Positions 26,910 through 50,679 of a stretch of 64,000 nt of DNA are shown in pieces. Position numbers and translations under genes: made by a program. The notes under the pieces are model-generated. The model saw nothing but the letters and a program-made list of their open reading frames with translations, had not been told where the DNA came from and did not search any database. This stretch comes from an uncultured Bacilli bacterium (GTDB lineage Bacteria; Bacillota_I; Bacilli_A; RF39; UBA660): contig CALWAL010000003.1 in NCBI GenBank assembly GCA_944373145.1, forward strand, positions 1 to 64,000. The letters run 5' to 3'. Numbering within the stretch: the first letter of the stretch is position 1; each line of letters opens with the position of its first letter.

Positions 26910-27203
26910 ATGAAAAAGAAAAAAAGGGCAATTAAATTTAATAAAAAAGAAAGATTTATTTATACCTTGGGGATATTGTCTTTTACTGCTCTTTTTGCAA
27001 CCACTATTTTCTTTGAAACGCAAATTAGTAATTTAAAGATGGATATTGAAAAAATAAATTATGAAATTGAAAATCAAGAAAAGAAAAATCAATCTTTAAC
27101 AATGCAAGTTAATGAATTAACTTCATATGAAAATGTTAGTGCAGTTATTGATAATTTAGGCCTTGCTTACAATAATGAAAATATAATTGTTGTTAATAAA
27201 TAA
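26910..27203 (+). CDS. ftsL: Cell division protein FtsL
   Basis: The 97-residue bitopic protein has a basic cytoplasmic tail (KKKKRAIKFNKKER), one membrane helix at about residues 14-33, and an extracytoplasmic coiled coil (ISNLKMDIEKINYEIENQEK). It ends in AVIDNLGLAYNNENIIVV. Sequence identity within FtsL is low, but size, topology and position between rsmH and pbpB identify it. FtsL forms the FtsQLB-type subcomplex with DivIC and DivIB that activates FtsW and PBP2B. Confidence 0.88.
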   Translation: MKKKKRAIKFNKKERFIYTLGILSFTALFATTIFFETQISNLKMDIEKINYEIENQEKKNQSLTMQVNELTSYENVSAVIDNLGLAYNNENIIVVNK

Positions 27204-27231
27204 TTTATGTTATAATAGTTTAGGTGATAAT

Positions 27232-29400
27232 ATGAAGAAGGAAACAAATACAGACATCGTAAAAAATTGGCGTCAACCAAAATTTGTCTTGTTAGGTTTC
27301 CTTTTTATTTTTTTAATTTTATTGGGACAATTTGCTTATTTATCATTATCTCCTACAATTTATGGGCGTGATTTAAAGGAATTTTCTAAAAAGCGTATTA
27401 CAGTAGAAAAGGAATTACTAGCTAAGAGAGGAACCATTTATGATATTGAAGGAAATATTTTGGCTATTGATGTAGCGTCATATACTTTAGTAGCTTATTT
27501 AGATTCTTCTAGAACTACTGATGAGGAAAATCCTGAACATGTTGTAGATAAAGAATATACGGCGGAAGCATTAGCTAAAGAATTAAATGCTCCTTATGAA
27601 TACATTTTAGAAAGGTTAGAAAAAGAGGGCGTTTATCAAGTCGAATTTGGTTCTTATGGTTCTAAATTAACAGAACTTGATAAGATTGCAATTGAATCTT
27701 TGGAATTACCAGGCATTGATTTTATTGAATCTAGTAAAAGATTTTATCCAAATGGAACTTTTGCTTCTTATATTATTGGCTATGCACGTATGAATGAAGA
27801 TGGTCAAATTCAAGGATATTTAGGAGTTGAAAGTGAATATAATGATTTATTAAGTGGAACAAATGGTAAACTTTTGTATCAAAAAGATCCCTCTGGTTTT
27901 CAGATTCCAGATACTGAGGAAACACGTATTGATGCTATAGACGGATCCGATATATATTTAACGATTGATTCAAATATACAGCGATTTTTAGAAACTGCAG
28001 TTAATGATGGTGTTGAGAATTACGATCCAGAATGGATGATTTTAGCTGTTATGGATGCTAAAACTGGTGAGATTTTAGGAAGTGCTACTTATCCGTCATT
28101 TGATGCTAATAGTTTGCCAGATAATATGAGTTACTTAAATCCATTGATATCGTATCCTTATGAACCTGGTTCAGTTATGAAAACCTATACCTATATGTGT
28201 GCTATTGAAACAGGTTTATATGACGGAGATCAAACATATAAATCAGGAAGGTATAAAGTAGGACCTGATACTGTTAGCGATTGGAAGCCGGCTGGTTGGG
28301 GTAAAATCAGTTATGACACGGGATACATGTATTCTAGTAATGTTGGCTCAATTAATGTTGCTAAAGAATATTTATCGGCTGAAAAATTGCGTAATTGTTT
28401 GAAATCATACGGTTTCGGGGCGCCAACGGGGATTGAACTTAGTGGTGAAGCGGATGTTAAACTTAATTTTAATGGTAATGTTGAGTTGGATTGGTTATCC
28501 GTTAGTTATGGTCAAGGGCTATATACAACGGCTATTCAGCAATTACAGGCTTTAACAATTATTGCTAATGATGGTGTGATGGTTAAACCTCATATTATAA
28601 AAAAGATTGTGAATACTTCAACCGGCGAGGAACAAATTACTCCTATTCAAAAAAGTGAACAAATTGTATCAAAATCAACAACTGACAAGATGCGAGAGTT
28701 GATGGACGGAGCTATCAATAATACTTGGACTCCAGGATACACTTATTCTGTTAAAGGTTATGATTTAATAGGAAAAACAGGAACGGCTCAAATATTTGAA
28801 AATGGTCATTACTTAACAGGGGATGGCAATTATCTTATATCTTTCGCTGGTATGTATCCTAAAGATGATCCTGAAATTATTATCTATGCTGCAATGTTTA
28901 AGCCTTCTACTTATTCAGCTAGAGCTTTAGCACCTTCTGTTCAGTCAGTTGTTAAGAATATTTCTAAATATCGTAATATTTTTTCAACTATTAAAGAAGA
29001 GTCTTCGGTTAATAGCTATGAATTGCCATCATATATTAATCAAAATAAAGATGCTGTCGTAAGTAGTCTTAAAAAGGATGGCTTAGATGTGATTGTTATA
29101 GGAAATGGTAGTGTCGTTACTAACCAGTATCCGACTAAAGGAACAAAAGTTATCACTAACGACAAAGTATTTTTGATTACAAATGGTAATGAAATAAAAA
29201 TGGAAAATGTTATTGGCTGGTCGCGTAATGATTTTATTAAATATGCTGATTTAATAAATTTGAAATACGAAATAAATGGTTATGGATATATAACTAAACA
29301 AAGTATTAAGCAAAACACAATTTTAAAAGATGATAGTGTCATAGAAGTGAATTTAAGTAATAAATATAATATAGATGGTAAGGAAGAAGTTATTGAATAA
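27232..29400 (+). CDS. pbpB: Penicillin-binding protein 2B (division transpeptidase)
   Basis: This 722-residue class B transpeptidase cross-links septal peptidoglycan. It has a membrane anchor near residues 17-38 and a dimerisation/pedestal domain starting with KRGTIYD. The transpeptidase domain has SVMK (Ser314), SSN (368-370) and KTGT (Lys515). Two C-terminal PASTA domains occupy roughly 600-720. B. subtilis PBP2B is 716 residues with two PASTA domains; SpoVD has one. The third ftsL-linked position also fits pbpB. It stays intact, so vegetative division should not depend on the split spoVD. The ATG at 27232 follows TAGGTGATAAT; TATAAT at 27211-27216 may give an extra promoter. Confidence 0.93.
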   Translation: MKKETNTDIVKNWRQPKFVLLGFLFIFLILLGQFAYLSLSPTIYGRDLKEFSKKRITVEKELLAKRGTIYDIEGNILAIDVASYTLVAYLDSSRTTDEENPEHVVDKEYTAEALAKELNAPYEYILERLEKEGVYQVEFGSYGSKLTELDKIAIESLELPGIDFIESSKRFYPNGTFASYIIGYARMNEDGQIQGYLGVESEYNDLLSGTNGKLLYQKDPSGFQIPDTEETRIDAIDGSDIYLTIDSNIQRFLETAVNDGVENYDPEWMILAVMDAKTGEILGSATYPSFDANSLPDNMSYLNPLISYPYEPGSVMKTYTYMCAIETGLYDGDQTYKSGRYKVGPDTVSDWKPAGWGKISYDTGYMYSSNVGSINVAKEYLSAEKLRNCLKSYGFGAPTGIELSGEADVKLNFNGNVELDWLSVSYGQGLYTTAIQQLQALTIIANDGVMVKPHIIKKIVNTSTGEEQITPIQKSEQIVSKSTTDKMRELMDGAINNTWTPGYTYSVKGYDLIGKTGTAQIFENGHYLTGDGNYLISFAGMYPKDDPEIIIYAAMFKPSTYSARALAPSVQSVVKNISKYRNIFSTIKEESSVNSYELPSYINQNKDAVVSSLKKDGLDVIVIGNGSVVTNQYPTKGTKVITNDKVFLITNGNEIKMENVIGWSRNDFIKYADLINLKYEINGYGYITKQSIKQNTILKDDSVIEVNLSNKYNIDGKEEVIE

Positions 29401-38329: not shown

Positions 38330-39586
38330 ATGTTTGTCAAAAAAATGAATGAAAGAATGAAATTAGTTTTGGTAATTATTTTATTTTTATTTATTGTAAT
38401 TATTATTAAAGTGTTTTATATTCAAGTTATAAGTTATGATAAATTAAATAGTTCTGCTAATAGTTTATGGAGTCGTAATCTTCCTTTAGAAGCTAATCGA
38501 GGAATTATTTATGATATTGACGGAGAGGTTTTAGCTGGTAATATTACTACAACTTCCTTAATTTTAATACCTAATCAGATTGTAGATAAGGAGCATACTG
38601 CACAAGAATTAGCACGTATTTTAGATGTTTCATACGATGACATGTATAATCATGTATCGAAAAAAACGTCTATTGAAAGAGTTCATCCTGAAGGTAGAAG
38701 ACTTAGTAATGACATTGCTGATCAAATTAATGATTTAAATTTGAGTGGTGTTTATTTAGTAAAAGAAGCTAAAAGAAATTATCCATATGATACATTACTT
38801 TCTAATACGCTAGGCTTTGTTGGTATTGATAATCAAGGTTTAAGTGGGTTAGAACTAATTTATGATGATTATTTAACAGGAATTTATGGCGCAATAAAAT
38901 ATTATAGTGATGCAAAGGGCAACACTTTAAATTTAAGTCAGGTTTATGAAAAACCTCAAGATGGTATTAATATTACCTTAACAGTAGATTATGAATTGCA
39001 AGAAGCTTTAGAAAGAGAGTTGGATAATGCTATGACAATGTATTCAGCCGATCAAGCTTTTGGAATAGCGATGAATCCCAATACTGGTGAGATTTTAGCG
39101 ATTGCCTCTCGTCCTGATTTTTCTCCTTCAAATTATCAAGATTATAGCATTGAAGATATTAATCGTAATTTACCGATTTGGATGACTTATGAGCCCGGTT
39201 CAACTTTTAAAATTATTTCTTTAGCAGCTGCTTTAGAAGAAGATTTAATTGATTTAGAAGAAGATCACTTTTATGATTCGGGGGTTGTAACAGTAGAATC
39301 AGCTAAACTTCATTGTTGGAAACATGGTGGGCACGGTGAACAAACTTATTTACAAGTCGTTGAAAATTCTTGTAATACAGGATTTGTTAATATTGGTTTA
39401 AAACTTGGCAAAGAAAAATTATTTAATTATATAGATTTATTTGGTTTTGGCAAAAAAACAGGTATTGAATTAAGTGGTGAAGCTCAAGGAATTATATTTG
39501 ATGTTGATAAGATAGGCGATTTAGAGACGGCTACTACGGCTTTTGGTCAAGGTGTATCAGTAACAGCTATTCACCTTGTTGTCTAA
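38330..39586 (+). CDS. spoVD: SpoVD, N-terminal part (gene interrupted by the element)
   Basis: SpoVD is the mother-cell transpeptidase that makes spore cortex peptidoglycan with SpoVE. This part has a membrane anchor at about residues 11-32, the pedestal start NRGIIYD and the transpeptidase motifs STFK (Ser291) and SCN (347-349). It then runs across the insertion at 39572 and stops as HLVV. KTG is missing, so this 418-residue product alone cannot be active. Joining 38330-39571 to 50017-50679 gives 635 codons (634 residues; Bacillus SpoVD is 646) and reads VTAIQQITAVSAAINGG across the junction, parallel to TTAIQQLQALTIIANDG in pbpB. Confidence 0.92.
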   Translation: MFVKKMNERMKLVLVIILFLFIVIIIKVFYIQVISYDKLNSSANSLWSRNLPLEANRGIIYDIDGEVLAGNITTTSLILIPNQIVDKEHTAQELARILDVSYDDMYNHVSKKTSIERVHPEGRRLSNDIADQINDLNLSGVYLVKEAKRNYPYDTLLSNTLGFVGIDNQGLSGLELIYDDYLTGIYGAIKYYSDAKGNTLNLSQVYEKPQDGINITLTVDYELQEALERELDNAMTMYSADQAFGIAMNPNTGEILAIASRPDFSPSNYQDYSIEDINRNLPIWMTYEPGSTFKIISLAAALEEDLIDLEEDHFYDSGVVTVESAKLHCWKHGGHGEQTYLQVVENSCNTGFVNIGLKLGKEKLFNYIDLFGFGKKTGIELSGEAQGIIFDVDKIGDLETATTAFGQGVSVTAIHLVV

Positions 39587-39594
39587 TAAATGAT
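39552..39594 (+). other. attL: left junction of the element in spoVD
   Basis: spoVD sequence ends at 39571 (codons GTA ACA GCT ATT). CA at 39572-39573 is the predicted crossover dinucleotide. From 39574 the element begins with CCTTGTTGTCTAATAAATGA, the right half of attP. The assignment rests on restored reading frame and on symmetry with the other end. Confidence 0.88.
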
Positions 39595-39831
39595 ACCCTT
39601 ACTATTACTAGAGGAATAAATAGTAAATACACAAAAAAATACGATGTGGAGTATGAATATAAGTGTTTGATAAATATATAGATTTAAATACTACTTTTAA
39701 TAAAATATGCCAAAAATCTATGGTATAATAATATATGTAAGTGATAAATTATGGGTATGTTTGAAAAAACAAAAATAATTATCTAAAAGTAATTATATTA
39801 AAAAATGTTTTCATTAAAAAGGGAGTATGAA
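39587..39831 (+). other. Left-end non-coding region of the element
   Basis: No supported gene lies here in the integrated form. In the excised circle 39574-39681 would extend the recombinase reading frame by 35 codons to TAG at 39679-39681. A TATAAT (39724-39729) is a plausible -10 for the ABC exporter; no good -35 is visible. A short open frame at 39751-39786 (11 codons plus stop) has no ribosome site. Confidence 0.6.
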
Positions 39832-40770
39832 ATGAAAAATGTAATTGAAGTTAAAAATTTAATAAAAGAATATAAAGAAATAAAAGCAGTAGATAATTTA
39901 TCTTTTGAAGTTCATGAAGGAGAAATTCTAGGTCTTTTAGGTCCAAATGGAAGTGGCAAAACAACAACAATAAATTGTCTATTATCACTATTGAATTATA
40001 GTAGTGGAAGTATAAAAATATTTGGTAAAGAGATGAAACCCGATTCTTACGATATAAAATCTAAAATAGGTGTTGTATTTCAAGAAGTAGCAGTTTTTGA
40101 TGAATTAACTGTTTACGAAAATGTAGATTATTTTTGTGGACTATATATTGATAATAAAGAAACAAGAAAAAAGTATATTGAAGATGCAATAAACTTAGTA
40201 GGTTTGGAAAGTTTTAAAAACTTTTATCCCAAAAAATTATCTGGTGGTTTGTTAAGACGATTAAATATTGCTTGTGGTATAGCTCATAAACCTAAACTTA
40301 TTTTTTTAGACGAACCAACTGTTGCAGTAGATCCACAAAGTAGAAATAATATTCTAGATGGAATAAAAAAATTGCGAGATAATGGAGCAACAATCGTATA
40401 TACAACACATTACATGGAAGAAGTTGAAATACTTTGTGATAGAGTTATTATACTCGATAAAGGTAAAATTTTAGCAACTGGTACAACTGATGAATTAAAA
40501 GAATTAGCTAAAATAGAAGAAAAAATATCGATAGAAATAAATGACTTAGATATTAATTACATAGATAAAATAAAAGAATTAAAAAATGTAGATTATGTTA
40601 AATATAGTAGTAATATATTGGTTGTTACATATAAAAAAGGTAAAAATAATTTAGTTGAAATAATGGAGTATTTAAAGAAAAATAATATTAAATATAATAA
40701 AATATATTCAGAAAGACCAACACTTAACGATGTGTTTCTTGAATTAACTGGAAAGGAACTTAGAGATTAA
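39832..40770 (+). CDS. ABC transporter ATP-binding protein (ABC-2/DrrA type)
   Basis: The 312-residue ATPase has Walker A GPNGSGKTTT near residue 39, a Q-loop VVFQE, signature LSGGLLRRLNIA (usually LSGGQ), Walker B LIFLDEPTVAVDP near 150 and the H-loop TTHYMEE. A C-terminal extension of about 90 residues resembles DrrA-type exporters. ATG 39832 follows GGGAGT; an upstream ATG is less likely. It energises the two permeases encoded directly downstream. Substrate unknown: drug, peptide or lipid export are all possible. Confidence 0.93.
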   Translation: MKNVIEVKNLIKEYKEIKAVDNLSFEVHEGEILGLLGPNGSGKTTTINCLLSLLNYSSGSIKIFGKEMKPDSYDIKSKIGVVFQEVAVFDELTVYENVDYFCGLYIDNKETRKKYIEDAINLVGLESFKNFYPKKLSGGLLRRLNIACGIAHKPKLIFLDEPTVAVDPQSRNNILDGIKKLRDNGATIVYTTHYMEEVEILCDRVIILDKGKILATGTTDELKELAKIEEKISIEINDLDINYIDKIKELKNVDYVKYSSNILVVTYKKGKNNLVEIMEYLKKNNIKYNKIYSERPTLNDVFLELTGKELRD

Positions 40771-41952
40771 ATGTTTATTCATAATTTTAAATATTCTTTA
40801 AAAACTCTTTTTAGAAACAAAGAATTAATATTTTGGACTTTTGCATTTCCAATAATATTAGCAACTTTCTTTAATATGGCGTTTTCAGATATAGAAAATA
40901 GTGAAAAATTAGACATTATAAATATAGCAATTATTCAAAATGATGATTTTAATAATAACGAAGTTTTTAAATCAGCCTTTGAAGAAATGAGTGATAAAAA
41001 TAATAAGGATAGATTATTCGAAACCAAATACACTACAAAAGAAGAAGCACAAAAATTACTAGAAGAAGAAAAAATAGTTGGTTATATGGAATTAGTAGAT
41101 AATAAACCTAAATTAACTTTTATAACAAGTGGTATTAATGAAACTATATTTAAATATGTATCAGAAGAAATTATGCAAACAAGTAATATTATAAATAACC
41201 TTACTGAAGAAGAAATACAAAACCAAATTATGACAGGAAATTTCAATGTTGACTATGAAAGTATTTATAATAAAGTAATAGAGATTACAACTGAAGAAAA
41301 TGTTAAACTTAAGAATATTTCGAGTGATAATCTAAGTTATACAATGATAGAATTTTATACACTTATTGCAATGGTTTGTTTATATGGTGGGATACTTGGA
41401 ACTGTTTCTATAAATCAAAATTTAGCTAATATGTCTAATCAAGGAAAAAGAGTATCAGTAGCACCCACAACAAAAGGTAAAGTAATTTTAAGTAGTGTTC
41501 TTGCAAGCTATATTACTCAATTAATAGGAGTTGCATTATTATTTATTTATACTATCTTTGTATTAAATGTTGATTATGGTAATAATTTAGGATTAATTAT
41601 TATTTTAGCAATGGTAGGAAGTCTAGCAGGATTATCATTAGGTACTATGGTAGCAACTACAATTAAATCAAATGAAAATGTTAAAACTGGCATAATTTTA
41701 TCTATAACAATGTTAGGTTGTTTTTTATCAGGAATGATGGGAATAACAATGAAATACATAATTGATAAAAATATTCCAATTATTAATAAATTAAATCCTG
41801 CAAATATGATAACAGATGGTTTATATTCTTTATATTACTATGAAACATTAGATAGATATATATTTAATGTTATAAGTTTGCTTATTTTTGCTTTCATATT
41901 AATTACAGTTTCCTATATCAGTTTAAGGAGGCAAAAATATGACAGTATTTAA
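40771..41952 (+). CDS. ABC-2 type permease (first subunit)
   Basis: The 393-residue permease has one N-terminal membrane helix (about residues 20-37) and a large extracytoplasmic domain (about 40-200). A bundle of five helices follows at the C-terminus, including GCFLSGMMGITMKYI and NPANMITDGLYSLYYYE, the ABC-2 (YhgE/NatB-like) layout. It starts on the base after the ATPase stop and overlaps the second permease by 14 bases. It likely forms a heterodimeric channel with that subunit. Confidence 0.9.
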   Translation: MFIHNFKYSLKTLFRNKELIFWTFAFPIILATFFNMAFSDIENSEKLDIINIAIIQNDDFNNNEVFKSAFEEMSDKNNKDRLFETKYTTKEEAQKLLEEEKIVGYMELVDNKPKLTFITSGINETIFKYVSEEIMQTSNIINNLTEEEIQNQIMTGNFNVDYESIYNKVIEITTEENVKLKNISSDNLSYTMIEFYTLIAMVCLYGGILGTVSINQNLANMSNQGKRVSVAPTTKGKVILSSVLASYITQLIGVALLFIYTIFVLNVDYGNNLGLIIILAMVGSLAGLSLGTMVATTIKSNENVKTGIILSITMLGCFLSGMMGITMKYIIDKNIPIINKLNPANMITDGLYSLYYYETLDRYIFNVISLLIFAFILITVSYISLRRQKYDSI

Positions 41953-43087
41953 AACATTTTTAAAAATATTAAACAAAAATAAATTCATTATAATATTGTA
42001 TACATTATTTTTAATATTCTTTGGTGGATTTAATATGCAAACAAGTGAACATAATACAAACTTTGTTGCAAGTAAACCTGATATAATGATAGTAAATTAT
42101 GATGAAGAAAAAGGAATTACAAAAGATTTAATAAAATATATAGAAGAAAATAGTAATGTAGTAGATTTAAAGAATAATGAAGATGCAATTAATGATGCCT
42201 TATTTTATAGAGATGTAAATTATGTAGTATATATTCCTAAAAATTATAATAAAGATTTTATGGATGGAAAAAATCCTGAAATAGAAATTAAAAGTACAGG
42301 AGATTATCAATCATCATTTGCCGAAATGTTGTTATCAAGATACATTAAAGTAGCAAATATTTATCAAAAAAGTATTAATAGTGAAGAAGAATTAATTAGT
42401 AAAATAAATGAAACTTTATCTAAAAAAAGTGAAGTCGAAATAACATCCAAATTAGATACTAATATTTTATCAAAAGCAACGTTTTATTATAATTTTGCTA
42501 ATTATAGTATAATGGCATGTTTGATATATGTTATATGTTTAATTTTAGCAAGTTTTAAAGATATAAAAATTCAAAAAAGAACAATTATTAGTAGTACTAA
42601 TTATAAAACTTTAAATAGAAAAATATTGTTATCAAATAGTTTGTTTTCCATAATTTTGTGGATGATATATGTTGTATTAAGTTTCATTTTAGTAGGGGAT
42701 ATAATGTTTTCTATTCATGGCATTTTTTACTTAATAAATTCATTTGTATTTACAATATGTGCTACCACAATTGCATTATTTATTGGTAATATAGTTTCAA
42801 ATAAAAATACAATAAGTGGAATAGTTAATGTAATAGCTCTGGGATCAAGTTTCTTATGTGGAGCATTTGTTCCAATGGAGTGGCTACCAGATGGAGTTAT
42901 AAAAATTGCTCATATTTTACCTTCATATTACTATATAAGTAATAATGAAGTTTTAAAAACATTAGAACTTATTAATTTAAATACTATAAAACCAATATTA
43001 TTAAATATTATAATTGTATTATCTTTTTCTATTATGTTTATTATTCTAACTAATATAGTATCAAAAAGAAAACAAAAAATAGGTTAA
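41939..43087 (+). CDS. ABC-2 type permease (second subunit)
   Basis: The 382-residue permease has the same plan as the first. One N-terminal helix leads to an extracytoplasmic domain (PDIMIVNYDEEKG...DVNYVVYIPKNYN) and a C-terminal helix bundle with SSFLCGAFVPMEWLPDG and HILPSYYYISNNEVLKT. The two permeases are paralogues but clearly different in sequence. Coupled translation to the first permease indicates fixed stoichiometry. Together with the ATPase it forms the cargo exporter of the element. Confidence 0.9.
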   Translation: MTVFKTFLKILNKNKFIIILYTLFLIFFGGFNMQTSEHNTNFVASKPDIMIVNYDEEKGITKDLIKYIEENSNVVDLKNNEDAINDALFYRDVNYVVYIPKNYNKDFMDGKNPEIEIKSTGDYQSSFAEMLLSRYIKVANIYQKSINSEEELISKINETLSKKSEVEITSKLDTNILSKATFYYNFANYSIMACLIYVICLILASFKDIKIQKRTIISSTNYKTLNRKILLSNSLFSIILWMIYVVLSFILVGDIMFSIHGIFYLINSFVFTICATTIALFIGNIVSNKNTISGIVNVIALGSSFLCGAFVPMEWLPDGVIKIAHILPSYYYISNNEVLKTLELINLNTIKPILLNIIIVLSFSIMFIILTNIVSKRKQKIG

Positions 43088-43116
43088 AAATAGAAATATG
43101 AAAGAGAGTTGTGGAT

Positions 43117-43869
43117 ATGGAAATATTAGAATATGGTGATCCTAAAAATAAAAAAATTATTTTAATTCATGGTTTTCAATGCCCATATCAAATTTGGAAT
43201 GATTATATCGAGTATTATAAAAACAATTATTTTGTAATTGTTCCAATTCTTGAGGGCCATAATGTAAATGATAAAGAAAATTTTATTTCTTTTGATATAT
43301 GCGCTAAAGATATAGAAGAATATTATATTAAAAGATATGGTAATAAAGTTTTTGCTGTTTATGGTATGAGTATGGGAGGAATTTTAGCAAGCTACATTTG
43401 GAAGAATAAAAATATAGAAATAGAAAAATTAATATTAGAAAGTTCTCCTCTCTTATCTTGGAATAATTTTATTATAAGATATTTTACAAATTGGTATTTA
43501 GATATTACTCATAAAACGCAAAATAGAGATAAAAAAACTATAAATCATGCAGTTGGTACTATTATTAGCAAGGACAAATTAAATATATTTTTAGAACTAT
43601 GTGATCATCTGTCAGATGAAACAATAATCAATTGTGTTAAGGAAGTTGGTAGGTTTAATTTACCAAAGGATATTGATACACCTGATACAGAGGTTTATTA
43701 TTTGTATGGTAGTAAAATAAATGAAATTTTATTTAGAAAAGTAGCAAGATATTTGAAAAAAAATTATAATGCAACGACTATTTGTTTGAAAGGAAAAGGC
43801 CATTGTGAGGATACACTAACTAATTCTAAAGAACATATTAAAACTTTAAATAAAGTACTAAAAAAATAA
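43117..43869 (+). CDS. Alpha/beta hydrolase
   Basis: The protein of about 250 residues has LIHGFQCPYQIWNDY (oxyanion HG), the nucleophile elbow GMSMGG (Ser near residue 89), and a C-terminal GKGHCED that carries the catalytic His. This is a serine hydrolase of the esterase/lipase type with no signal peptide. The ATG at 43117 is better spaced from AGAGAG than the GTG at 43111. It follows the exporter by about 30 bases and is likely in that operon; it may process or detoxify the exporter's substrate. Confidence 0.85.
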   Translation: MEILEYGDPKNKKIILIHGFQCPYQIWNDYIEYYKNNYFVIVPILEGHNVNDKENFISFDICAKDIEEYYIKRYGNKVFAVYGMSMGGILASYIWKNKNIEIEKLILESSPLLSWNNFIIRYFTNWYLDITHKTQNRDKKTINHAVGTIISKDKLNIFLELCDHLSDETIINCVKEVGRFNLPKDIDTPDTEVYYLYGSKINEILFRKVARYLKKNYNATTICLKGKGHCEDTLTNSKEHIKTLNKVLKK

Positions 43870-44015
43870 ATCAAGTTATCTAAACGTCAATCGTTTGATA
43901 ATAAATATATTTTTTAAAATAAAGCATTAATTTTTACATTATTGTTAATAAATTTAATACTTATTTAAAAACATTAATGTTAAAATAATGTTTTTTTAAT
44001 TATGATATTTTCAAA

Positions 44016-44045
44016 CACGATTAAATGTGATATAATTTAATCGTG
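44016..44045 (+). promoter_or_regulatory. AbiE operator: perfect 11-bp inverted repeat over the -10 box
   Basis: CACGATTAAAT (44016-44026) and ATTTAATCGTG (44035-44045) are perfect inverted repeats with an 8-base spacer. TATAAT (44031-44036) is embedded between and into the arms. AbiEi antitoxins are known to autorepress through inverted repeats at their promoter, so this is the likely site. Confidence 0.8.
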
Positions 44046-44060
44046 AAAGGAAATGATGAT

Positions 44061-44648
44061 ATGGAATATGAAAATAAAATTTTAAATTTATTTAAAAATG
44101 GTTATCTAACTACTAAAGATGTTAATGATAATAATATTCCTAGATTTTATTTAACTAAACTTATTAAAGAAAACAAAATAGAAAGAGTAAGTCGAGGAGT
44201 ATATATTAAGAAAAATGAACTAGTCGATGAGTTTGTGATTTTACAAAGCAAAAGTAAAAATTCTATTTACTCAAATACAACCGCTTTATATTTACACGGT
44301 TTTTCTAATAGAATTCCTATTAAATATGATATTACTATCAATAGTGGTTATAATGGCTCTCTCCAAAAGGAAGATAATGTTAATTTATTTTATACAAAAA
44401 GAGAATTATTAGAGTTAGGAGTAATTGACTATAAATTGGATTCTGGTAATATTATCAGAGTTTACGATTTAGATAAAACTATTTGTGATATTATTAAAAA
44501 TAAGAAGAAAATAGATGCTGAAATTTTTAATAAGGCTATTAGAGAGTATTTTTATAGTAAAAAGAAAAACACTTTAAAACTATATGAATACGCTAAAAAG
44601 ATGAATATTTATAATAAAGTAAGAGATACTTTTGAGGTGTTTGGATGA
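44061..44648 (+). CDS. AbiEi-like antitoxin / transcriptional regulator (type IV TA)
   Basis: The 195-residue protein has an N-terminal winged helix (FKNGYLTTKDVNDNNIPRFYLTKLI) followed by IERVSRGVYIKKN. The AbiEi core comes next: SIYSNTTALYLHGFSNRIP near 80, then RVYDLDKTICDIIKNKKKID. In type IV AbiE systems the antitoxin represses the operon and counteracts the toxin without binding it. The start at 44061 is spaced nine bases from AAAGGA; the upstream GTG lies in the operator. The stop overlaps the toxin start by four bases. Confidence 0.87.
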   Translation: MEYENKILNLFKNGYLTTKDVNDNNIPRFYLTKLIKENKIERVSRGVYIKKNELVDEFVILQSKSKNSIYSNTTALYLHGFSNRIPIKYDITINSGYNGSLQKEDNVNLFYTKRELLELGVIDYKLDSGNIIRVYDLDKTICDIIKNKKKIDAEIFNKAIREYFYSKKKNTLKLYEYAKKMNIYNKVRDTFEVFG

Positions 44649-45496
44649 TTAAAAATAGAGATAGTCTAAAAGCCAAAGCATCTAACTTATCTAAAAAGAC
44701 TAACATACCTAATAAATATTTAATTCAAAACTTTATGTTTGAAGCCTTATTAAAAAGAATATCAAAATCTAAGTATAAAAATAAATTTGTCATTAAAGGT
44801 GGACTTTTATTATCGTCTGTCTTTGGTGTTAATTTGAGAAGTACTATGGATTTAGACACTACTATAAAAGGATTACCACTAGATAGAGATACTATTACTA
44901 AAGTTATTAATGAAATTATAAGTATTGATGTAGAGGATAATGTCAGACTTGAAATAGAAAATATGAAAGATATCAGAGAAGAAGAATTATATTCCGGATT
45001 TGAAGTTAATTTAAAAGCAGAATTTGACGGTTTAAAAACTAATTTAATGATTGATATAACTACTGGAGATATTATCACTTATAAAGAAGTCGAGTTTAAA
45101 TATAGTACCTTATTTGATAATGAAACCATTAATATTATGACTTATAATTATGAAACAATTATTGCTGAAAAATTTGAATCAATTATTAGTAGAAATATCG
45201 ATAATACTAGAATGAAAGATTACTATGATTTATATATGTTCGTTAATTTAAAATGGAATGACATTAATAAAGACACTTTAAGAAAAGCCATTATCAATAC
45301 ATCCAAAGCACGAGAAACATTAGACTATATTGATAATGCTAGCAAATATATAGAATTAATTAGTGATGATGAAAGATTAAAAGCTTTATGGAATAGTTAT
45401 CAAAATAACTATGAATATGCAAAAGATATAAAGTTTGTTGATACAATAAATGCCATTAAAGTAATTAGTGAAATTGTTGTACCAGTTGCAATTTAA
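44645..45496 (+). CDS. AbiEii-like nucleotidyltransferase toxin
   Basis: This 283-residue protein has the nucleotidyltransferase fold motif KGGLLLSSVFG near residue 50 followed by LRSTMDLDTTIKG (the D-x-D metal site, near 68). EKFESIISRNIDNTRMKDYYDLYM near 175 is another AbiEii/DUF1814 hallmark. Such toxins add nucleotides (to tRNA ends in the studied relatives), blocking translation, and can serve in phage abortive infection. The ATGA overlap with the antitoxin is typical. The pair would select against loss of the excised circle. Confidence 0.88.
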   Translation: MIKNRDSLKAKASNLSKKTNIPNKYLIQNFMFEALLKRISKSKYKNKFVIKGGLLLSSVFGVNLRSTMDLDTTIKGLPLDRDTITKVINEIISIDVEDNVRLEIENMKDIREEELYSGFEVNLKAEFDGLKTNLMIDITTGDIITYKEVEFKYSTLFDNETINIMTYNYETIIAEKFESIISRNIDNTRMKDYYDLYMFVNLKWNDINKDTLRKAIINTSKARETLDYIDNASKYIELISDDERLKALWNSYQNNYEYAKDIKFVDTINAIKVISEIVVPVAI

Positions 45497-45546
45497 AGTA
45501 GAAGGAAGTAAGAATGACTAACAGATAAATTAAAATAAGAGTTGTT

Positions 45547-45651
45547 ATGATAAATTCTGCTTTATGGAGGATACTGGAAAAATTAGGCTTCATTAGACAA
45601 AATAAAACTAGTTTAACATATTTTTTAGATGTGCTAATTGAAGATTATTAA
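45547..45651 (+). CDS. Possible small protein or gene remnant
   Basis: An open frame of 34 codons encodes INSALWRILEKLGF and TSLTYFLDVLIEDY, a helical, protein-like sequence. It has no good ribosome site and no long upstream frame. It may be a remnant of a longer gene or a small peptide. It lies in the 220-base gap between the AbiEii gene and the peptidase-like gene; the rest of the gap shows nothing clear. Confidence 0.25.
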   Translation: MINSALWRILEKLGFIRQNKTSLTYFLDVLIEDY

Positions 45652-45717
45652 TAGACTATTACTAAAGAACAATAGTTTACACTTTAAGAAATAATAAAAA
45701 TATAAGGAGATGATTTT

Positions 45718-46440
45718 ATGCAATTAATACTTTGTGGTGGAGGTTCTGGTGATCAAAATACATTAGCAAATCAAAAGCTTAATGAAATCATTGATCATAC
45801 AAGACCAATATTATATATACCACTTGCTATGAACGAAGAAGAGCATTCTTATGATAGTTGTTATGAGTGGATTCAAGGAGAGTTAGCAAATGTAGATATT
45901 CCATATATTGAAATGGTTAGAACATTTGAAGAACTTGCCTCTAAAGATTTTAAACATTATGCAGCATTATTTATTGGTGGTGGGAATACCTATAAATTAT
46001 TATTAGGTTTAAAGCAAAGTGGGGCTTTTAATAATATTAGGAATTATATCAATAACGATGGGATAGTAATAGGTGGAAGTGCAGGTGCAGTTATATTTGG
46101 ATATGATATAAATATTATTGCAAGTATGGATAGAAATGATGTTAATTTAACTGATACTAGAGGGTTTGATGTATTGTCAGGAATTTCTATTTTTCCACAC
46201 TATACTAATAAAAAGTCTAAACTTACTGATGATGAAAATGAAGAAAGATTAAATAAATTTACAAATTCAATTATTAATTTTTCAAAATCAATAGGGAAAG
46301 TAATTGCTATACCAGAAGAAGATGCAATTTATGTAAATAATAATAGCATTGAATTGTTAGGAACTAGAGATTATTTTACATTTGAAAATGGATTGATAAA
46401 TAAATTTGACATTGAAGATAACAAACAAATAAAAAGATGA
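45718..46440 (+). CDS. Peptidase E-like (S51, class I glutamine amidotransferase fold) protein
   Basis: The 240-residue protein starts LILCGGGSGDQNT and contains FIGGGNTYKLLLGLKQSG near residue 83. The nucleophile elbow IGGSAGAVIFG near 117 (Ser119 in G-x-S-A-G) follows, then GISIFPHYTNKK with the catalytic-region His. Peptidase E relatives cleave Asp-X dipeptides or act on cyanophycin-like substrates. AAGGAGATGA precedes the ATG. It lies between the AbiE pair and the hairpin region, alone in its own transcript. Its benefit to the element is unclear. Confidence 0.87.
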   Translation: MQLILCGGGSGDQNTLANQKLNEIIDHTRPILYIPLAMNEEEHSYDSCYEWIQGELANVDIPYIEMVRTFEELASKDFKHYAALFIGGGNTYKLLLGLKQSGAFNNIRNYINNDGIVIGGSAGAVIFGYDINIIASMDRNDVNLTDTRGFDVLSGISIFPHYTNKKSKLTDDENEERLNKFTNSIINFSKSIGKVIAIPEEDAIYVNNNSIELLGTRDYFTFENGLINKFDIEDNKQIKR

Positions 46441-46524
46441 TGTAGAGCATTACTCAACTCACTCAACATTGTTTTTTTAGTAAAAAGATAATAAGATTAT
46501 TAATAAATAATTAAAAATTTTATC

Positions 46525-46563
46525 CGACATGAAAAAAGCATAAAACGACATGAATTAGGCATA
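46525..46563 (+). repeat. Two iteron-like 18-bp repeats
   Basis: CGACATGAA-N4-GCATA occurs at 46525-46542 and again at 46546-46563, a 21-bp step (two helical turns). The conserved halves are identical and only the four internal bases differ. It lies just upstream of a strong promoter and is likely a protein-binding site (regulator, replication initiator or directionality factor). Confidence 0.65.
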
Positions 46564-46570
46564 GAATAAG

Positions 46571-46599
46571 CTTGACCTAGTTTTGTCAAGTGCTATAAT
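46571..46599 (+). promoter_or_regulatory. Strong promoter with overlapping inverted repeat
   Basis: TTGACC (46572-46577) and TATAAT (46594-46599) have a 16-base spacer. CTTGAC (46571-46576) and GTCAAG (46585-46590) form a perfect 6-bp inverted repeat across the -35 and spacer, so a repressor could bind there. Transcription would enter the hairpin region that follows. Confidence 0.7.
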
Positions 46600-46605
46600 A
46601 TAGTA

Positions 46606-46890
46606 AAATATTAAGAAATTACGCAGAGAGGAACTAGATTCTTCTCTTTTTCTTTTGAAAGAAGGTGTTATATAAAATAAAATTAAAGGAAGCGCATATT
46701 TTTAATGAATTAGTAATAAGTGGTCACTATTTATAAAAGTAGTAGCCACTTTTTTAATTAGTATTAAAAGAACTTTTATACATGAGTAGTCACTTCTACT
46801 TATAAAAGTAGTCATTTTTGCAAGTGCAAAAATAGTAAGACACCATTACTTCATCCTTATTTTATCAAGGATCAATAAATTTATGGTGTC
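46606..46890 (+). ncRNA. Structured non-coding transcript or origin region in the element
   Basis: The region after the promoter has no gene but at least four hairpins. AGAGAGGAA...TTCTTCTCT with a T run lies near 46625-46652 (terminator-like). AAGTGGTCACTA...TAGTAGCCACTT plus T6 is near 46718-46756. ATTTTTGC-AAGT-GCAAAAAT is at 46813-46832. GACACCAT (46839-46846) pairs with ATGGTGTC (46883-46890), enclosing a CCTT...AAGG stem. Options are a small regulatory RNA, an attenuator leader for the HTH gene, or a replication/transfer origin. Non-coding nature is clear; which of these is not. Confidence 0.5.
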
Positions 46891-46994
46891 GTTCTTCTTA
46901 TGCCCATTAAAAATATGCAGTATTTTTACTATAAAAAACACCCCCAAAATAGCAAAAGTGGCTACTCATAATTTTAAGAAAGGAAAAATAAATA

Positions 46995-47311
46995 TGATAT
47001 TTAGAACAAATAAAATTACAAATTATACGAAGATTGATAATAGATATTTGGAAGATAAAAACATTTCTTTAAAGGCTAAAGGATTATTAACTTTAATGTT
47101 ATCTTTACCAGATAATTGGAAATTTAATGTTAATGGTTTATGCCTTTTATGTAAAGAAAGTAAAAATGCAGTTAATAGCGCAATAAAAGAATTAAAGGAT
47201 AATAAATATTTAGAGGTGGAAAAAACTTACGATGAAAGTGGAAGATTTATTTATGTATATATCATTTATGAATATCCAGATGACCCGAAAGGACATCTCG
47301 ATTTACCATAA
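46995..47311 (+). CDS. Helix-turn-helix protein (replication/regulatory type)
   Basis: The 105-residue protein begins MIFRTNKITNYTKID-NRYL and contains ISLKAKGLLTLMLSLPDNWKF followed by CKESKNAVNSAIKELKDNKYL. This is a winged helix common in phage and plasmid replication-initiation and transfer-region proteins of Firmicutes (helix-turn-helix domain, RepL/DnaD-like). AAGAAAGGAAAAATAAAT precedes the ATG; the open frame further upstream runs through the hairpins and is rejected. The usual longer C-terminal part is absent, so it may be a shortened relative. Confidence 0.75.
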
Positions 47312-47576
47312 CTGGATAATTAGATACTATTAATAACTAATATATTAATAAACTAAAAATAAATAGATAAAGTTGATAAAACAAAATAAATTTTTTTGTA
47401 AAAATCTCTTGCAAAATTCACTTTTTTAAGTGATAAATATTAAAACCAAAAAATTTGTTTATTAATGTTTAATTTAACTTATAAGAGGTTTTAATATCAT
47501 TCATAATCAGTTATTAGTATAAAAAATTAAAGCTTCTTAAAATGGCTTAAATTAAAAATGAAAGGATGTGTTTAAT
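47312..47576 (+). other. AT-rich intergenic region in the element
   Basis: About 265 bases with no supported gene. It holds runs of A and T and repeated TTAATAA/ATATTAAT words. AAAGGATGTG near 47561 is the ribosome site of the following gene. No clear terminator or promoter pair is seen. Confidence 0.4.
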
Positions 47577-48002
47577 ATGTATTTAAAAAATACAAGTGAT
47601 GAGGTTAAAAAAATAACAGAAAAAATAATTGAACTGGATAATGAAAATAAACTTAAATTTATCAGTTATATTTTAAGTTTATGGGATAATGGCCAAATTA
47701 ATAGTTTAAATGAAACTAACCCTTATTTATTAGATGACAGTATCTGTATCGATATATTTAATCCAAGTAGTATTGGTTACCGTTATTTAGTAACTAAATT
47801 AAAAGAATATTGGAATCATACATATAAACTTTATCATCTTTATCAAGAGGAATATAAAAGAATGATACCTTTATTTGAAAAGTTATCTTTTAAAGAAAAG
47901 ATAGATGTACTTGCAGAAATATTTTTAATTTTAGAACATGATAAATTACTACCAGATAATGTTGATGGCTATGAAATTGCTAGAATGATTATAAAATATT
48001 AA
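47577..48002 (+). CDS. Unknown element protein upstream of the recombinase module
   Basis: The 141-residue protein is helical and acidic: TSDEVKKITEKIIELDNENKLKFISYILSLWDNG, then SICIDIFNPSSIGYRYLVTKLKEYWNHTYKLYH and FEKLSFKEKIDVLAEIFLILEHDK. It has no membrane segment, cysteine cluster or known motif. The ATG at 47577 follows AAAGGATGTG. It lies just ahead of the attenuator and could be a regulator or an accessory recombination factor. Family not recognised. Confidence 0.65.
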   Translation: MYLKNTSDEVKKITEKIIELDNENKLKFISYILSLWDNGQINSLNETNPYLLDDSICIDIFNPSSIGYRYLVTKLKEYWNHTYKLYHLYQEEYKRMIPLFEKLSFKEKIDVLAEIFLILEHDKLLPDNVDGYEIARMIIKY

Positions 48003-48025
48003 ATATTTGAAAACTAAATTGTTAT

Positions 48026-48128
48026 TTGAAAACTTAATATTTTCGGATAATAATTTAGTCTAATTTTGTCCTTATAAGGTATTAAGTTTTCAATTTTTGT
48101 AGAACTTATTACCTTAAGTTCTTTTTTA
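48026..48128 (+). promoter_or_regulatory. Predicted transcription attenuator ahead of the recombinase module
   Basis: Four segments can pair in exclusive ways. A (48026-48039, TTGAAAACTTAATA) is fully complementary to B (48080-48093). B's 48076-48088 (AAGGTATTAAGTT) pairs 12 of 13 with C (48103-48115, AACTTATTACCTT). AGAACTT (48101-48107) pairs with AAGTTCT (48116-48122) followed by T6, a terminator. So A:B permits termination, while B:C blocks it. The signal that chooses is not evident; no clear leader peptide is seen. Confidence 0.65.
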
Positions 48129-48168
48129 GTTTTTATAAAAATAAACTTAAAAGAAAGGACAAAAATAT

Positions 48169-48375
48169 ATGGAAAAGGTAAATAAAATTCCATCTAGAAT
48201 AATTGAAATAGAAACAAGTATCAAATTGCTAGAATACTTAAAAAGAAAAAATGTTATAGATGATGGAATGTATAACTTTTGTATTAACAAATTAATGAAT
48301 AAACTTACATTAGAAAAAAGTAAGATTGATGAAGATTATATAAATAATACCAATAATTATAAAATATTAACTTAG
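48169..48375 (+). CDS. Small protein, candidate recombination directionality factor
   Basis: The 68-residue protein (IPSRIIEIETSIKLLEYLKRK, DDGMYNFCINKLMNKLTLE) is helical, with basic and acidic patches. Its stop is 11 bases before the recombinase start, and GAAAGGAC precedes its ATG, so the two are co-expressed downstream of the attenuator. Small unrelated proteins beside serine integrases often act as directionality factors that switch integration to excision. There is no sequence-family proof; the role is inferred from position only. Confidence 0.65.
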   Translation: MEKVNKIPSRIIEIETSIKLLEYLKRKNVIDDGMYNFCINKLMNKLTLEKSKIDEDYINNTNNYKILT

Positions 48376-48386
48376 GAGGCGTTACT

Positions 48387-50036
48387 ATGGACTTATATAC
48401 AGTTAGGAATAACATTATGAAAGGCATTCCCTTGCAAGAATTAAAATTAAGAGTATGTTTCTATGCAAGAGTATCAACGGATAAAGATGAGCAATTACAC
48501 TCTCTATCTGCTCAAGTATCTTTTTTTAATGATTATATAAGTAAAGTTCCTAACTGGCAGTTTATAGGTTCATATATTGATGAAGGTATTAGTGGCACAT
48601 CAGTTAATAAACGTGAAGAATTTTTAAAAATGATCGAAGATGCCAAAAAGCATAAATTTGATTTAATATTAACAAAAGAAATATCAAGATTTTCAAGAAG
48701 TACTTTAGACAGCATCAAATATACACAAGAGTTACTGCAAGATGGTGTTGGTGTCTATTTTTTAAATGATAATATTAATACTATCTTACCTGATTCTGAA
48801 CTTAGACTTACAATAATGTCTTCGATTGCTCAAGATGAAGTTAGAAAACTATCAGAAAGAGTATCTTTTGGCATGAAAAGAAGTATTGATAGTGGTACTG
48901 TGCTAGGTTGTTCTAATATCTATGGTTATGTAAAAGATAAAGGAAAATTAGTGATTGATGAAAAAGAGGCAGAAATGATTAAAATTATATTTGATAGATA
49001 TGCCAATACTACAGATGGTTTATCTAAAGTATCAAAGTATTTATATGAATTAGGTTACAAAAATAAAAAAGGTAAAAGAATAGATACAACAATACTAACT
49101 AGAATTATTGAAAACCCTAAATATAAAGGATACTATTGTGGCCATAAAACGAAAGTATTAGATTACCGTACTAAAAAGAAGAAAAAATTAAATGAATCGG
49201 ATTGGATTATTTATAAAGATAACGAAAATGTCCCACCGATAGTATCAGAAGAACTATGGGATAGAGCTAACAAAAAATTAAAGGAAAGGCAAGATAGTTT
49301 TACAAACAGGGCAGTAAATAAAAAAGTGTTTCAAAATAGATATACTTATTCCGGCAAAATTTACTGTGGTAGACATGGCTTAACTTATCATAGATCATCT
49401 GCTGGTAAAAGAAAAAATAATCCCGTATGGGAATGCCAAGTATACCGGAAAGAAAGTTTAAAGGGTTGCTCTAATCCTAGAGTATTTGAGTATGAATTAG
49501 ATATAGTTTTTAAAGATATGTTTAAAAAATTATTGAAACGAAGAAAGCATATTTTTGATGATATATTAAATGACTGTAAAAATTATTTAGAAACCAATAA
49601 TAATGAGTCTGAAATAAAAAATATAGAATCCAAAATTTTAATGTTTAATAATAAAAAAGATAAATTACTAGAACTTGTTATGGAGGAGTATTTATCTAAA
49701 GAGGACTATAAAAAACAGGTGGATTTAATTAATGAAGAAATAATTACTAATCAAAACAGATTAAATGAATTACAAAATAACAAGCAAGATAAAAACTATA
49801 TAGAAAATAAAATTAATGAACTAAAAGAAATGTTAGATAATTGTTTAACTGATGATGAGTGTTTCAGTGATGTATTTAATGAATTAATTGATAGAATCTA
49901 TGTTTATAAAGAAGAGAATAAAAAGATAAAACTAGATATTTATATAAAAACAGGAGAAAGCATAAATATATTCTCTGATAACTTGGATAGAAAGTTTCAT
50001 TTAATAGACGACGTTACAGCAAATTACGGCTGTTAG
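48387..50036 (+). CDS. Large serine recombinase (integrase/excisionase of the spoVD element)
   Basis: The 549-residue recombinase has the resolvase catalytic domain with YARVSTD (nucleophile Ser30), FDLILTKEISRFSRST near residue 91, and DEVRKLSERVSFGMKRSI near 151. A Recombinase domain follows (about 175-290). The zinc ribbon is YCGRHGLTYH...WECQ...GCSNP (about 325-370), and a coiled coil spans about 405-470. AGGAGGCG precedes the ATG. The stop codon at 50034-50036 lies beyond the crossover, in spoVD DNA. In the excised circle the frame would replace the last five residues (ANYGC) with 35 others, to 579 residues. It is the most likely enzyme for insertion and excision here. Confidence 0.95.
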   Translation: MDLYTVRNNIMKGIPLQELKLRVCFYARVSTDKDEQLHSLSAQVSFFNDYISKVPNWQFIGSYIDEGISGTSVNKREEFLKMIEDAKKHKFDLILTKEISRFSRSTLDSIKYTQELLQDGVGVYFLNDNINTILPDSELRLTIMSSIAQDEVRKLSERVSFGMKRSIDSGTVLGCSNIYGYVKDKGKLVIDEKEAEMIKIIFDRYANTTDGLSKVSKYLYELGYKNKKGKRIDTTILTRIIENPKYKGYYCGHKTKVLDYRTKKKKKLNESDWIIYKDNENVPPIVSEELWDRANKKLKERQDSFTNRAVNKKVFQNRYTYSGKIYCGRHGLTYHRSSAGKRKNNPVWECQVYRKESLKGCSNPRVFEYELDIVFKDMFKKLLKRRKHIFDDILNDCKNYLETNNNESEIKNIESKILMFNNKKDKLLELVMEEYLSKEDYKKQVDLINEEIITNQNRLNELQNNKQDKNYIENKINELKEMLDNCLTDDECFSDVFNELIDRIYVYKEENKKIKLDIYIKTGESINIFSDNLDRKFHLIDDVTANYGC

Positions 50037-50040
50037 CGCA
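49995..50040 (+). other. attR: right junction of the element in spoVD
   Basis: Element sequence ends ...TTTAATAGACGACGTTA at 50016. CA at 50017-50018 is the crossover, and spoVD resumes with GCAAATTACGGCTGTTAGC. Counting outward from CA, element positions 5-20 on this side match the complement of positions 5-20 on the attL side in 14 of 16 places. This is the two-fold symmetry of an attP site. Confidence 0.88.
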
Positions 50041-50679
50041 GCAATTAATGGGGGAATTCTTTATAAGCCTTATATTGTTTCAAGTTTAAATGATCCTGAA
50101 ACTAATCAGGTTATTTTAAAAAATGAACCAACAGTAGTGCGTAAAGTTATTAGTGAAACGACTAGTGAAAAAGTTAGATATGCTTTAGAAAGCGTAGTTG
50201 CTAATGGGACTGGACATAATGCATACATTGCGGGATATCGTGTTGGTGGTAAGACTGGTACTGCTCAGAAAGTTGAAGATGGTAAATATTTAGTAGGTAA
50301 TTATATAACTTCTTTTATTGGATTTATGCCAGCTGATGATCCTGAAATTGTTATTTATATTGCTGTTGATAATGCTAAAGGAGTTAGTCAATATGGAGGA
50401 ACTGTAGCAGCTCCATTAGCGCGTAATTTTCTACTTTCAGCAATTCCTATTTTAGGATTAGAATATGATGAAGAGGGAATGGATAAGGAGTATGTGTATC
50501 CAGATAAAAAATATTATACAATACCCGATGTATCCGGTTTAGAATTGAAAGATGCTTTAAAGCAATTAAAAAATTTTAAAGTTGAATATGAGGGAGAAGG
50601 TAAAGTAATAGAACAATCACCTAAAGCGGGAATTGATATTTATGAAGGAGAAACGATTCGTTTATATTTAAGTGAATAG
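50017..50679 (+). CDS. spoVD: SpoVD, C-terminal part (beyond the insertion)
   Basis: This fragment has no start of its own. In the rejoined frame it begins at CAG CAA ATT ACG GCT (QQITA). It carries the third transpeptidase motif KTGTAQ (Lys493 of the joined protein), MPADDPEIVIYIAVDNAKG, and one C-terminal PASTA domain (TIPDVSGLELKDALKQLKN...EGETIRLYLSE). A single PASTA domain is the SpoVD pattern. An internal GTG at 50137 could give a short open frame but would be non-functional. It is followed by a small membrane protein gene and mraY-spoVE. Confidence 0.92.
   Translation, partial: QQITAVSAAINGGILYKPYIVSSLNDPETNQVILKNEPTVVRKVISETTSEKVRYALESVVANGTGHNAYIAGYRVGGKTGTAQKVEDGKYLVGNYITSFIGFMPADDPEIVIYIAVDNAKGVSQYGGTVAAPLARNFLLSAIPILGLEYDEEGMDKEYVYPDKKYYTIPDVSGLELKDALKQLKNFKVEYEGEGKVIEQSPKAGIDIYEGETIRLYLSE

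Follow-up and report, generated by a model that had tools for sequence, protein, structure and literature searches.

Recombinase-bearing elements are known to split sporulation genes, which are rebuilt upon precise removal of the inserted DNA (PMC6957869, PMC5595907, PMC4191935, PMC10747680). The accessible parts of these papers list sigK, spoVFB/spoIVFB, spoVR, spsM and gerE as targets, together with a prophage in kamA (PMC6957869), and add yabG as a further one (PMC10747680). Programmed DNA removal from sporulation genes has so far been known for a handful of genes and strains. Here we analysed 64,000 bp of DNA from an uncultured Bacilli bacterium of the GTDB lineage RF39; UBA660 (assembly GCA_944373145.1, contig CALWAL010000003.1, positions 1 to 64,000; hereafter the window), in which the sporulation gene spoVD is broken at 39572/50017 by an element of 10,445 bp encoding a large serine recombinase (LSR). 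Comparison with relatives suggested that the element is a reversible intervening sequence, most likely removed in the mother cell during sporulation, a reading to which we assign a probability of roughly 0.68. Very probably, it belongs to a new and unusually recurrent set of sporulation-gene intervening elements, the developmental timing of which we infer.

The element resembles skin (in sigK), SP-beta (spsM), vfbin (spoVFB), vrin (spoVR), gin (gerE) and yin (yabG), as far as these are covered by the accessible text of the sources, in that a recombinase element splits a sporulation gene and its precise removal rebuilds the gene. It shares three features with sporulation-intervening elements, namely an insertion point within the coding region of a sporulation gene, an LSR of its own, and a short CA core at which the frame is rebuilt exactly. 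However, the spoVD elements differ from the kind represented by skin, SP-beta and gin in several respects. Their target is absent among those named in the accessible part of PMC6957869, and no description of spoVD as a target of such an element was found in searches of open-licence papers, in line with a preliminary description of the window that knew of none. Four attachment sites are found in this one gene, apparently with up to three filled together; the insertions recur throughout the family, and the recombinase gene is itself reciprocally split. Excision in sporulation has been demonstrated for the skin, SP-beta and gin kind according to the same partly accessible sources, whereas the spoVD elements are known here from sequence alone. 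The target gene, the several sites per gene, the multiple occupancy and the family-wide recurrence are new relative to the known systems.

Three other systems invite comparison. The fdxN element of Anabaena, excised by XisF, embodies the same idea, with a recombinase removing DNA during the development of a terminal cell type; but the window LSR matches the NCBIfam XisF model weakly (98 bits, cut-off 375), and gene, host and developmental programme are all different. The best NCBIfam match of the LSR is CcrB, one of the recombinases (CcrA/B/C) of staphylococcal cassette chromosome (SCC) elements. Its score of 120 bits lies far under the cut-off of 900, and SCC cassettes differ in cargo and in their target gene, which is rlmH rather than spoVD; assignment to this class was thus rejected. 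The recombinase of ICEBs1 is of another class than the LSRs. This element likewise has been found inside spoVD, in B. subtilis, but there as a laboratory secondary site, from which excision was undetectable according to the accessible part of the report (PMC3715440).

spoVD is split by a large serine recombinase element

The split gene, the attachment sites and the recombination genes of the element, together with a separate penicillin-binding protein (PBP) gene, are as follows.

27187..29400, plus strand: intact pbpB-like PBP, a separate gene outside the element
38330..39571, plus strand: spoVD exon 1, codons 1-414, with the SxxK and SxN motifs
39560..39600, plus strand: attL, crossover CA at 39572-39573; left end CCTTGTTGTCTAATAAATGATAC, resembling that in relatives
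39572..50016, plus strand: intervening element of the site C type, 10,445 bp
39574..39681, plus strand: 35 codons plus stop, the split 3' end of the recombinase gene, which continue the LSR frame only via the circular junction (attP)
48169..48375, plus strand: small open reading frame (ORF) of 68 amino acids (aa), immediately 5' of the LSR gene and conserved in site-C elements
48387..50036, plus strand: large serine recombinase with Resolvase, Recombinase and zinc-ribbon domains; the integrated form reads through attR into spoVD
50005..50030, plus strand: attR, crossover CA at 50017-50018
50017..50679, plus strand: spoVD exon 2, codons 415-634 plus stop, with the KTG motif and the PASTA domain

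The preliminary description had claimed that spoVD is split by a serine-recombinase element, and the ORFs, their coordinates and the element length of 10,445 bp agreed with that claim. Read on into the element, the frame of exon 1 meets a stop at 39584-39586. Joining the two exons in silico yielded 634 aa plus stop without any frameshift, equal to the 635 in-frame codons proposed earlier. Exon 1 encodes S291-TFK, the nucleophile motif, as well as SCN, and exon 2 encodes KTG and a single PASTA domain, each feature lying in the half to which it had been ascribed. Against the TIGR02214 spoVD_pbp profile the halves align to positions 4-414 and 453-635 (the second ORF counted from 50137), and the intact relative L007 exceeds the cut-off (711 vs 688 bits). 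The insertion motif is VTPIQQ (site C, codon 415). In the joined attP, the arms flanking CA appear almost symmetrical by eye (TAGACGACGTTA / TAGACAACAAGG). A second spoVD was not found in the assembly of the window's own genome, labelled G000, where two of the five transpeptidase matches are the halves themselves; the separate intact pbpB noted previously was recovered as the PBP gene listed above.

The insertion recurs at defined codons in relatives

We scanned the contigs of other species-representative genomes with exon 1 and took the best 80 loci. spoVD is continuous in 58 of these and truncated by the end of a contig in two; it breaks at the window's codon in 16 and near codon 350 in three, and in one (L065) it carries a frameshifting deletion. 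All 16 same-codon loci run on into a window-like left end, although in L026 this covers the first 13 bases only. Relatives, which the preliminary description had singled out for comparison, thus hold both the intact gene (58/80) and the same insertion site (16/80), and the repeated use of one codon argues for more than chance. Within the genus, SpoVD was found in 10 of 12 genomes, intact in three (G001, G004 and G010) and in pieces in seven.

Reading of the junctions defined three main sites, each at a conserved motif: site A at codons 291-294 (SxxK), site B at codon 349 (SxN) and site C at codon 415 (VTPIQQ). The family sample comprised 386 genomes, of which 115 were chosen by eye for renewed search, their best SpoVD match seeming too weak for a full-length frame; one of them (G389) is full-length but divergent, and the near-threshold G089 and G380 were left out. 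Of the first-exon ends (99 rows, one per genome), 86 fall into three narrow bins (A 15, B 44, C 27) and 13 outside them; the last-exon starts (78 rows) number 7 for A, 33 for B, 25 for C and 13 for other positions. The site bins were chosen once the data had been seen, and the p-value for clustering of the exon ends is accordingly descriptive. Exon 1 therefore ends at a main site in 86 of the 386 genomes, about one in five sampled species, and additionally in G000, G002 and G005; junction DNA was read for part of the 86, and G300 and G316 were counted since their contigs break off at the core. How often assembly breaks split a gene can be gauged roughly from SpoIVA, found in at least two matches in ~33/335 genomes by eye, though SpoIVA may itself be a target.

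A DNA pattern for the C-type left end was found in 37/386 genomes and 30/150 genera, with no hit of the reversed control pattern among the matches listed. A stricter regular expression caught 27 of the 30 returned loci, and 26 of these 27 lie in spoVD at the same codon. The exception, L121/L170 (G300:C2, at a contig end), has a C-type left end outside spoVD beside unrelated DNA and is a candidate chimera or secondary integration site. One genome (G293; L151, G293:C32) has a fourth site, located around codons 405-408, which encode FGQG, and marked by the shared sequence GGGCAAGGT; the LSR there belongs to a separate lineage.

Rejoining is exact and the exons are intact

Rejoining was assessed at 15 loci with both exons of a singly split gene; L151, split at the fourth site, and L148, whose exon 1 is truncated, were set aside. 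In all 15 (six C, five B and four A), a dinucleotide shared by the two ends restores a frame of 632-636 aa. CA is the sole dinucleotide common to the six C loci, as is AA of codon 349 for the five B loci; at site A, three dinucleotides (AC, TT and AA, around codons 292-294) are common to all four loci, leaving several possible cores. Furthermore, all 49 alignments of exons or their parts are free of stops, four of these rows being from G032 and G151, in which no element was seen. Some other survey rows were flagged with stops, and where the DNA was read, which was not the case for every row, these sat in the element flank. The second exons at site C are open to the native stop in 13 of 13 cases (12 with attR and one starting at the core). 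Decay of both halves in relatives, which the preliminary description had named as a sign of plain gene disruption, is thus not seen in these alignments; the exception L065 is considered below.

At two loci, L028 (52-6398) and L055 (4447-10001), a C-element remnant lacking the LSR, with a middle exon (codons 349-414), lies just upstream of an intact spoVD. The L028 remnant carries ABC transporter and AbiE cargo resembling that of the window. This arrangement fits a whole gene accompanied by the relic of a copy once split several times, and a need for the intact gene after loss of the LSR. At a third locus, L068 (9758-10165), spoVD codons 364-414 are fused in frame behind the start of an ABC ATPase, directly upstream of an intact spoVD.

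Several elements can occupy one gene

Among the 38 distinct site-C left ends, 30 directly follow exon 1; seven are preceded only by a middle exon that begins at codons 340-349, and the last one by an exon beginning at codon 289. Such an exon 5' of the site-C left end implies that B or A is filled by a second element; L055, counted among the seven, is the relic beside an intact gene. In G003, three spoVD pieces lie on one contig, and removal of both inserts gives a 633-codon frame. On a single 8.2-kb stretch of G269, an A-type LSR separates exon 1 from exon 2, a B-type LSR separates exon 2 from exon 3, and a C-type left end follows; this implies four spoVD pieces, the last exon not having been located. 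The pattern is repeated in G087 and G375, spread over two contigs. Sites A, B and C are apparently all filled in these three genomes.

That the spoVD halves were joined to unrelated mobile DNA by faulty assembly or binning is extremely improbable. The genomes are metagenome bins, often fragmented, and some contigs end near the site, but the same codon and the same dinucleotide recur in dozens of species, both exons share one contig at 15 loci, and three exons do so in G003 and G269.

The recombinase gene is reciprocally split

In site-C elements, the LSR frame extends over attR into spoVD. At the predicted circular junction it instead extends into 35 codons encoded at the left end of the element. 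Of 32 left ends of sufficient length, 27 are open for 35-36 codons in the LSR frame and five are shorter, and the other frames stop by codon 6. Over 26 distinct 35-codon tails, the ratio of nonsynonymous to synonymous polymorphism (pN/pS) is 0.42 in the LSR frame, versus 2.0 and 1.1 in the other two, which indicates that the tail codons are conserved as protein. Given that the 3' end of the LSR gene lies at the opposite end of the element, two genes are broken upon integration, that of the host and that of the recombinase, and both would be made whole again by excision.

A full-length LSR form (579 aa) occurs at the junction of two element types in G211. Tandem accretion was observed at L177 (G210:C29) and at L178/L188 (G211:C20), where the LSR end of one site-C element is directly followed by a left end of a different type; the tandem at L178 gives the full-length LSR frame, and at L177 the LSR is broken into two ORFs. 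A free circle was considered for G211:C20; as its contig ends lack any overlap and the LSR of one element type borders on the left end of another, a tandem is more likely.

In a tree of 29 LSRs (six A, eleven B, eleven C and one from the fourth site), the A, B and C types form separate clades. Identity among the C-type LSRs is 70-96%, as against 32-45% between types. A single origin of all spoVD-targeting LSRs is not claimed, since the position of A was not resolved once outside LSRs were added (support of 0.005 at the key node).

Empty and occupied alleles

Both attB and attL were assembled in one metagenome bin, G022. Its contig C54 joins exon 1 to the element, representing the occupied allele, and its contig C48 starts with 77 bp of exon 1 that C54 also has, reaches the core and there passes into exon 2, representing the empty allele. 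The contig of G300 that carries exon 1 breaks off precisely at the B core, and an overlap of exactly 77 bp links it to the next contig, which runs across the empty site; the occupied allele was not seen in this genome. Besides G300, a contig ends or starts exactly at the core in G316, G002, G193 and G326, and one base off in G368, among the stretches of DNA that were read. Such breaks match a mixture of an occupied and an exactly empty allele in short-read assembly, and excision and a mixture of strains both fit. An overlap of 127 bp between contigs of G032 was rejected as a core junction, being located away from the core and representing an ordinary assembly break. In viral contigs, neither the attP pattern nor relatives of intact spoVD had a match, and the viral or phage relatives of the LSR (L263-L266) lack any spoVD piece.

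Empty and occupied alleles in one gut bin might also be expected if the elements were mobile islands, lost from the chromosome of growing cells at random or under stress. In that case spoVD would serve them only as a convenient landing site, dispensable for growth and highly conserved, and sporulation would proceed from cells that happen to be empty. The variable cargo with its ABC and defence genes, the spread between species, the tandem accretion and the lack of a recognised mother-cell promoter agree with this explanation. However, the three main sites, served by distinct LSR clades, all lie in one sporulation gene, and with two or three elements per gene the loss of all of them by chance would be rare unless coordinated. 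We thus regard random excision as unlikely.

Sporulation capacity of the carriers

A match to SpoIVA (E up to 1e-20, partial matches counted) was present in 335/386 family genomes. It is kept by 34 of the 37 carriers of a C-type left end versus 301 of the 349 others (Fisher p 0.45), and is missing from three carriers (G000, G002 and G327) and from 48 of the others. The C-type carriers are therefore not losing SpoIVA. In G000, Spo0A scored above its cut-off, SpoIIGA above the Pfam but below the NCBIfam cut-off, and SigK above the subfamily cut-off; SigE- and SigG-like factors are present below their cut-offs. SpoIIID was rejected as a weak marker of sporulation, being found in five of the 12 genus genomes and missing from some that have SpoIVA.

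These data are hard to reconcile with a plain disruption, in which spoVD would have been inactivated in lineages no longer sporulating and the halves would be intact only since the insertions are young. The retention of SpoIVA by 34/37 carriers, the Spo0A, SpoIIGA and sigma-E/G/K-like genes of G000, the 49 stop-free alignments and the intact spoVD in two genomes whose C element lost its LSR (L028 and L055) all speak against it. It would account for G000 and G002 lacking SpoIVA, for the recent transfer of some elements and for the broken spoVD of L065, and we consider it quite improbable.

Several observations weigh against programmed removal during sporulation. The two alleles of G022 may also represent two strains. 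No excised junction or circle was seen for G000, in the assembly of which the attL/attP pattern is present once. Alignment of 10 regions upstream of the small ORF and the LSR gene revealed a hairpin plus T run and a ribosome-binding site, and no sigma-E/K promoter was recognised by eye. SpoIVA was found neither in G000, the whole assembly of which was read, nor in its congener G002, both being carriers, and SpoIIID was not found in the G000 assembly; with G000 ~95% complete, the missing SpoIVA may be a gap or a real loss. At L065 (position 3572), some 38 bp, as judged by eye, are deleted close to codon 346 (site B), which shifts the frame; candidate causes are decay and an assembly fault, and its bin also has a second, full-length spoVD-like gene. 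Finally, in the most similar pairs the element ends are 95-99.7% alike versus 66-79% for spoVD exon 1 (for the window and G002, 99.3% over 403 bp versus 78.9%), so the elements move between species. Some insertions are accordingly recent, which makes the absence of decay weaker evidence than it appears.

The proposal in the preliminary description of a sporulation intervening sequence was hence borne out in part. Exact LSR insertion, restoration of the frame upon removal, intact pieces here and in many relatives, empty alleles in the relatives G022 and G300, and SpoIVA in the C-type carriers agree with it; the lack of SpoIVA, of an excised junction and of a recognised mother-cell promoter in the window's own assembly or element does not.

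A putative model for removal of the element

SpoVD is needed in the mother cell, and division would be served by a separate PBP. In our model, the LSR would initially insert the circle into attB, which lies at a conserved codon of the region for the transpeptidase domain and has the crossover CA, and so split spoVD. The split gene would be tolerated in growth, since division relies on another PBP. Afterwards, recombination of attL with attR would remove the element exactly and rebuild spoVD, and the resulting circle would restore a full-length recombinase gene, the last 35 codons of which come from the other end of the element. The LSR would catalyse this removal with a partner protein, for which the 68-aa protein, a candidate recombination directionality factor with no family match in Pfam and PHROGs scans, might serve. 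As the most likely setting for removal we propose the sporulating mother cell, which needs SpoVD and does not pass on its genome, by analogy with other such elements, which sit in mother-cell genes and are removed there according to the accessible parts of the reports (PMC6957869, PMC4191935, PMC5595907).

A wider version of the model is tentative, and we would place it somewhat short of even odds. In it, spoVD would resemble an intron-bearing gene at the DNA level, interrupted by up to three clade-distinct elements at conserved motif codons of the catalytic domain; the mother cell would have to remove all of them before making the cortex transpeptidase, with the site-C LSR whole only on the circle; this would form a recombination checkpoint in dozens of species, possibly involving spoIVA too.

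If removal is developmental, spoVD would be the most heavily interrupted bacterial gene known to us. The natural series of one, two and three insertions bears on why mobile elements choose mother-cell genes and how several excisions are coordinated. It also raises the question of whether split sporulation genes go unnoticed in the annotation of metagenomes, so that too few sporeformers are counted. The elements further offer families of site-specific integrases with defined attachment sites. The family consists of gut bacteria, and the repeated splitting of spoVD suggests DNA editing when their spores are made.

Cargo of the element and further observations

The remaining genes of the element, which include an ABC-2 export operon, are the following.

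39805..40770, plus strand: ABC transporter ATPase, cargo
40771..43087, plus strand: two ABC-2 permeases (40771-41952 and 41939-43087), cargo
43111..43869, plus strand: alpha/beta hydrolase-like protein, below the Pfam cut-off, cargo
44043..45496, plus strand: AbiEi (44043-44648) and AbiEii (44645-45496), an abortive-infection toxin-antitoxin pair, cargo
45718..46440, plus strand: peptidase of the S51 family, cargo
46883..47311, plus strand: HTH_36 or phage or plasmid replication-initiator N-terminal remnant, with a similar ORF in the L114 element
47568..48002, plus strand: 144-aa protein without a family match, with similar ORFs in L114 and G211:C20

A prophage was rejected, as phage structural or lysis genes were not found among the 10 of 11 element proteins compared with PHROGs, the matches of which are confined to integrase, replication-initiator, ABC-transporter and weak esterase families. 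The accessible literature on gin likewise reports no phage structural genes. An integrative conjugative element was also rejected, with no Pfam match to relaxase or transfer genes among the 11 proteins scanned.

In the window, the hairpin and T run (AGAACTTA...TAAGTTCTTTTTT) lie at 48070-48170, conserved in site-C elements just 5' of the small ORF and the LSR gene, and are a candidate terminator or attenuator. G000 has five more LSR ORFs, all distant from the spoVD LSR (L254 3356-5083, L241 7211-8779, L197 2194-4128, L260 14357-16210 and L228 11162-12655).

In G001, SpoIVA is in two pieces (C20:5516-5881, codons 1-123, and C19:4503-5606, codons 121-492), with kilobases of contig past each break. 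In the family table, from which the genomes with at least two SpoIVA matches were counted above by eye, the best E-value is often similar to the one obtained with the 121-492 fragment. The SpoIVA gene is thus possibly a second recurrent split sporulation gene.

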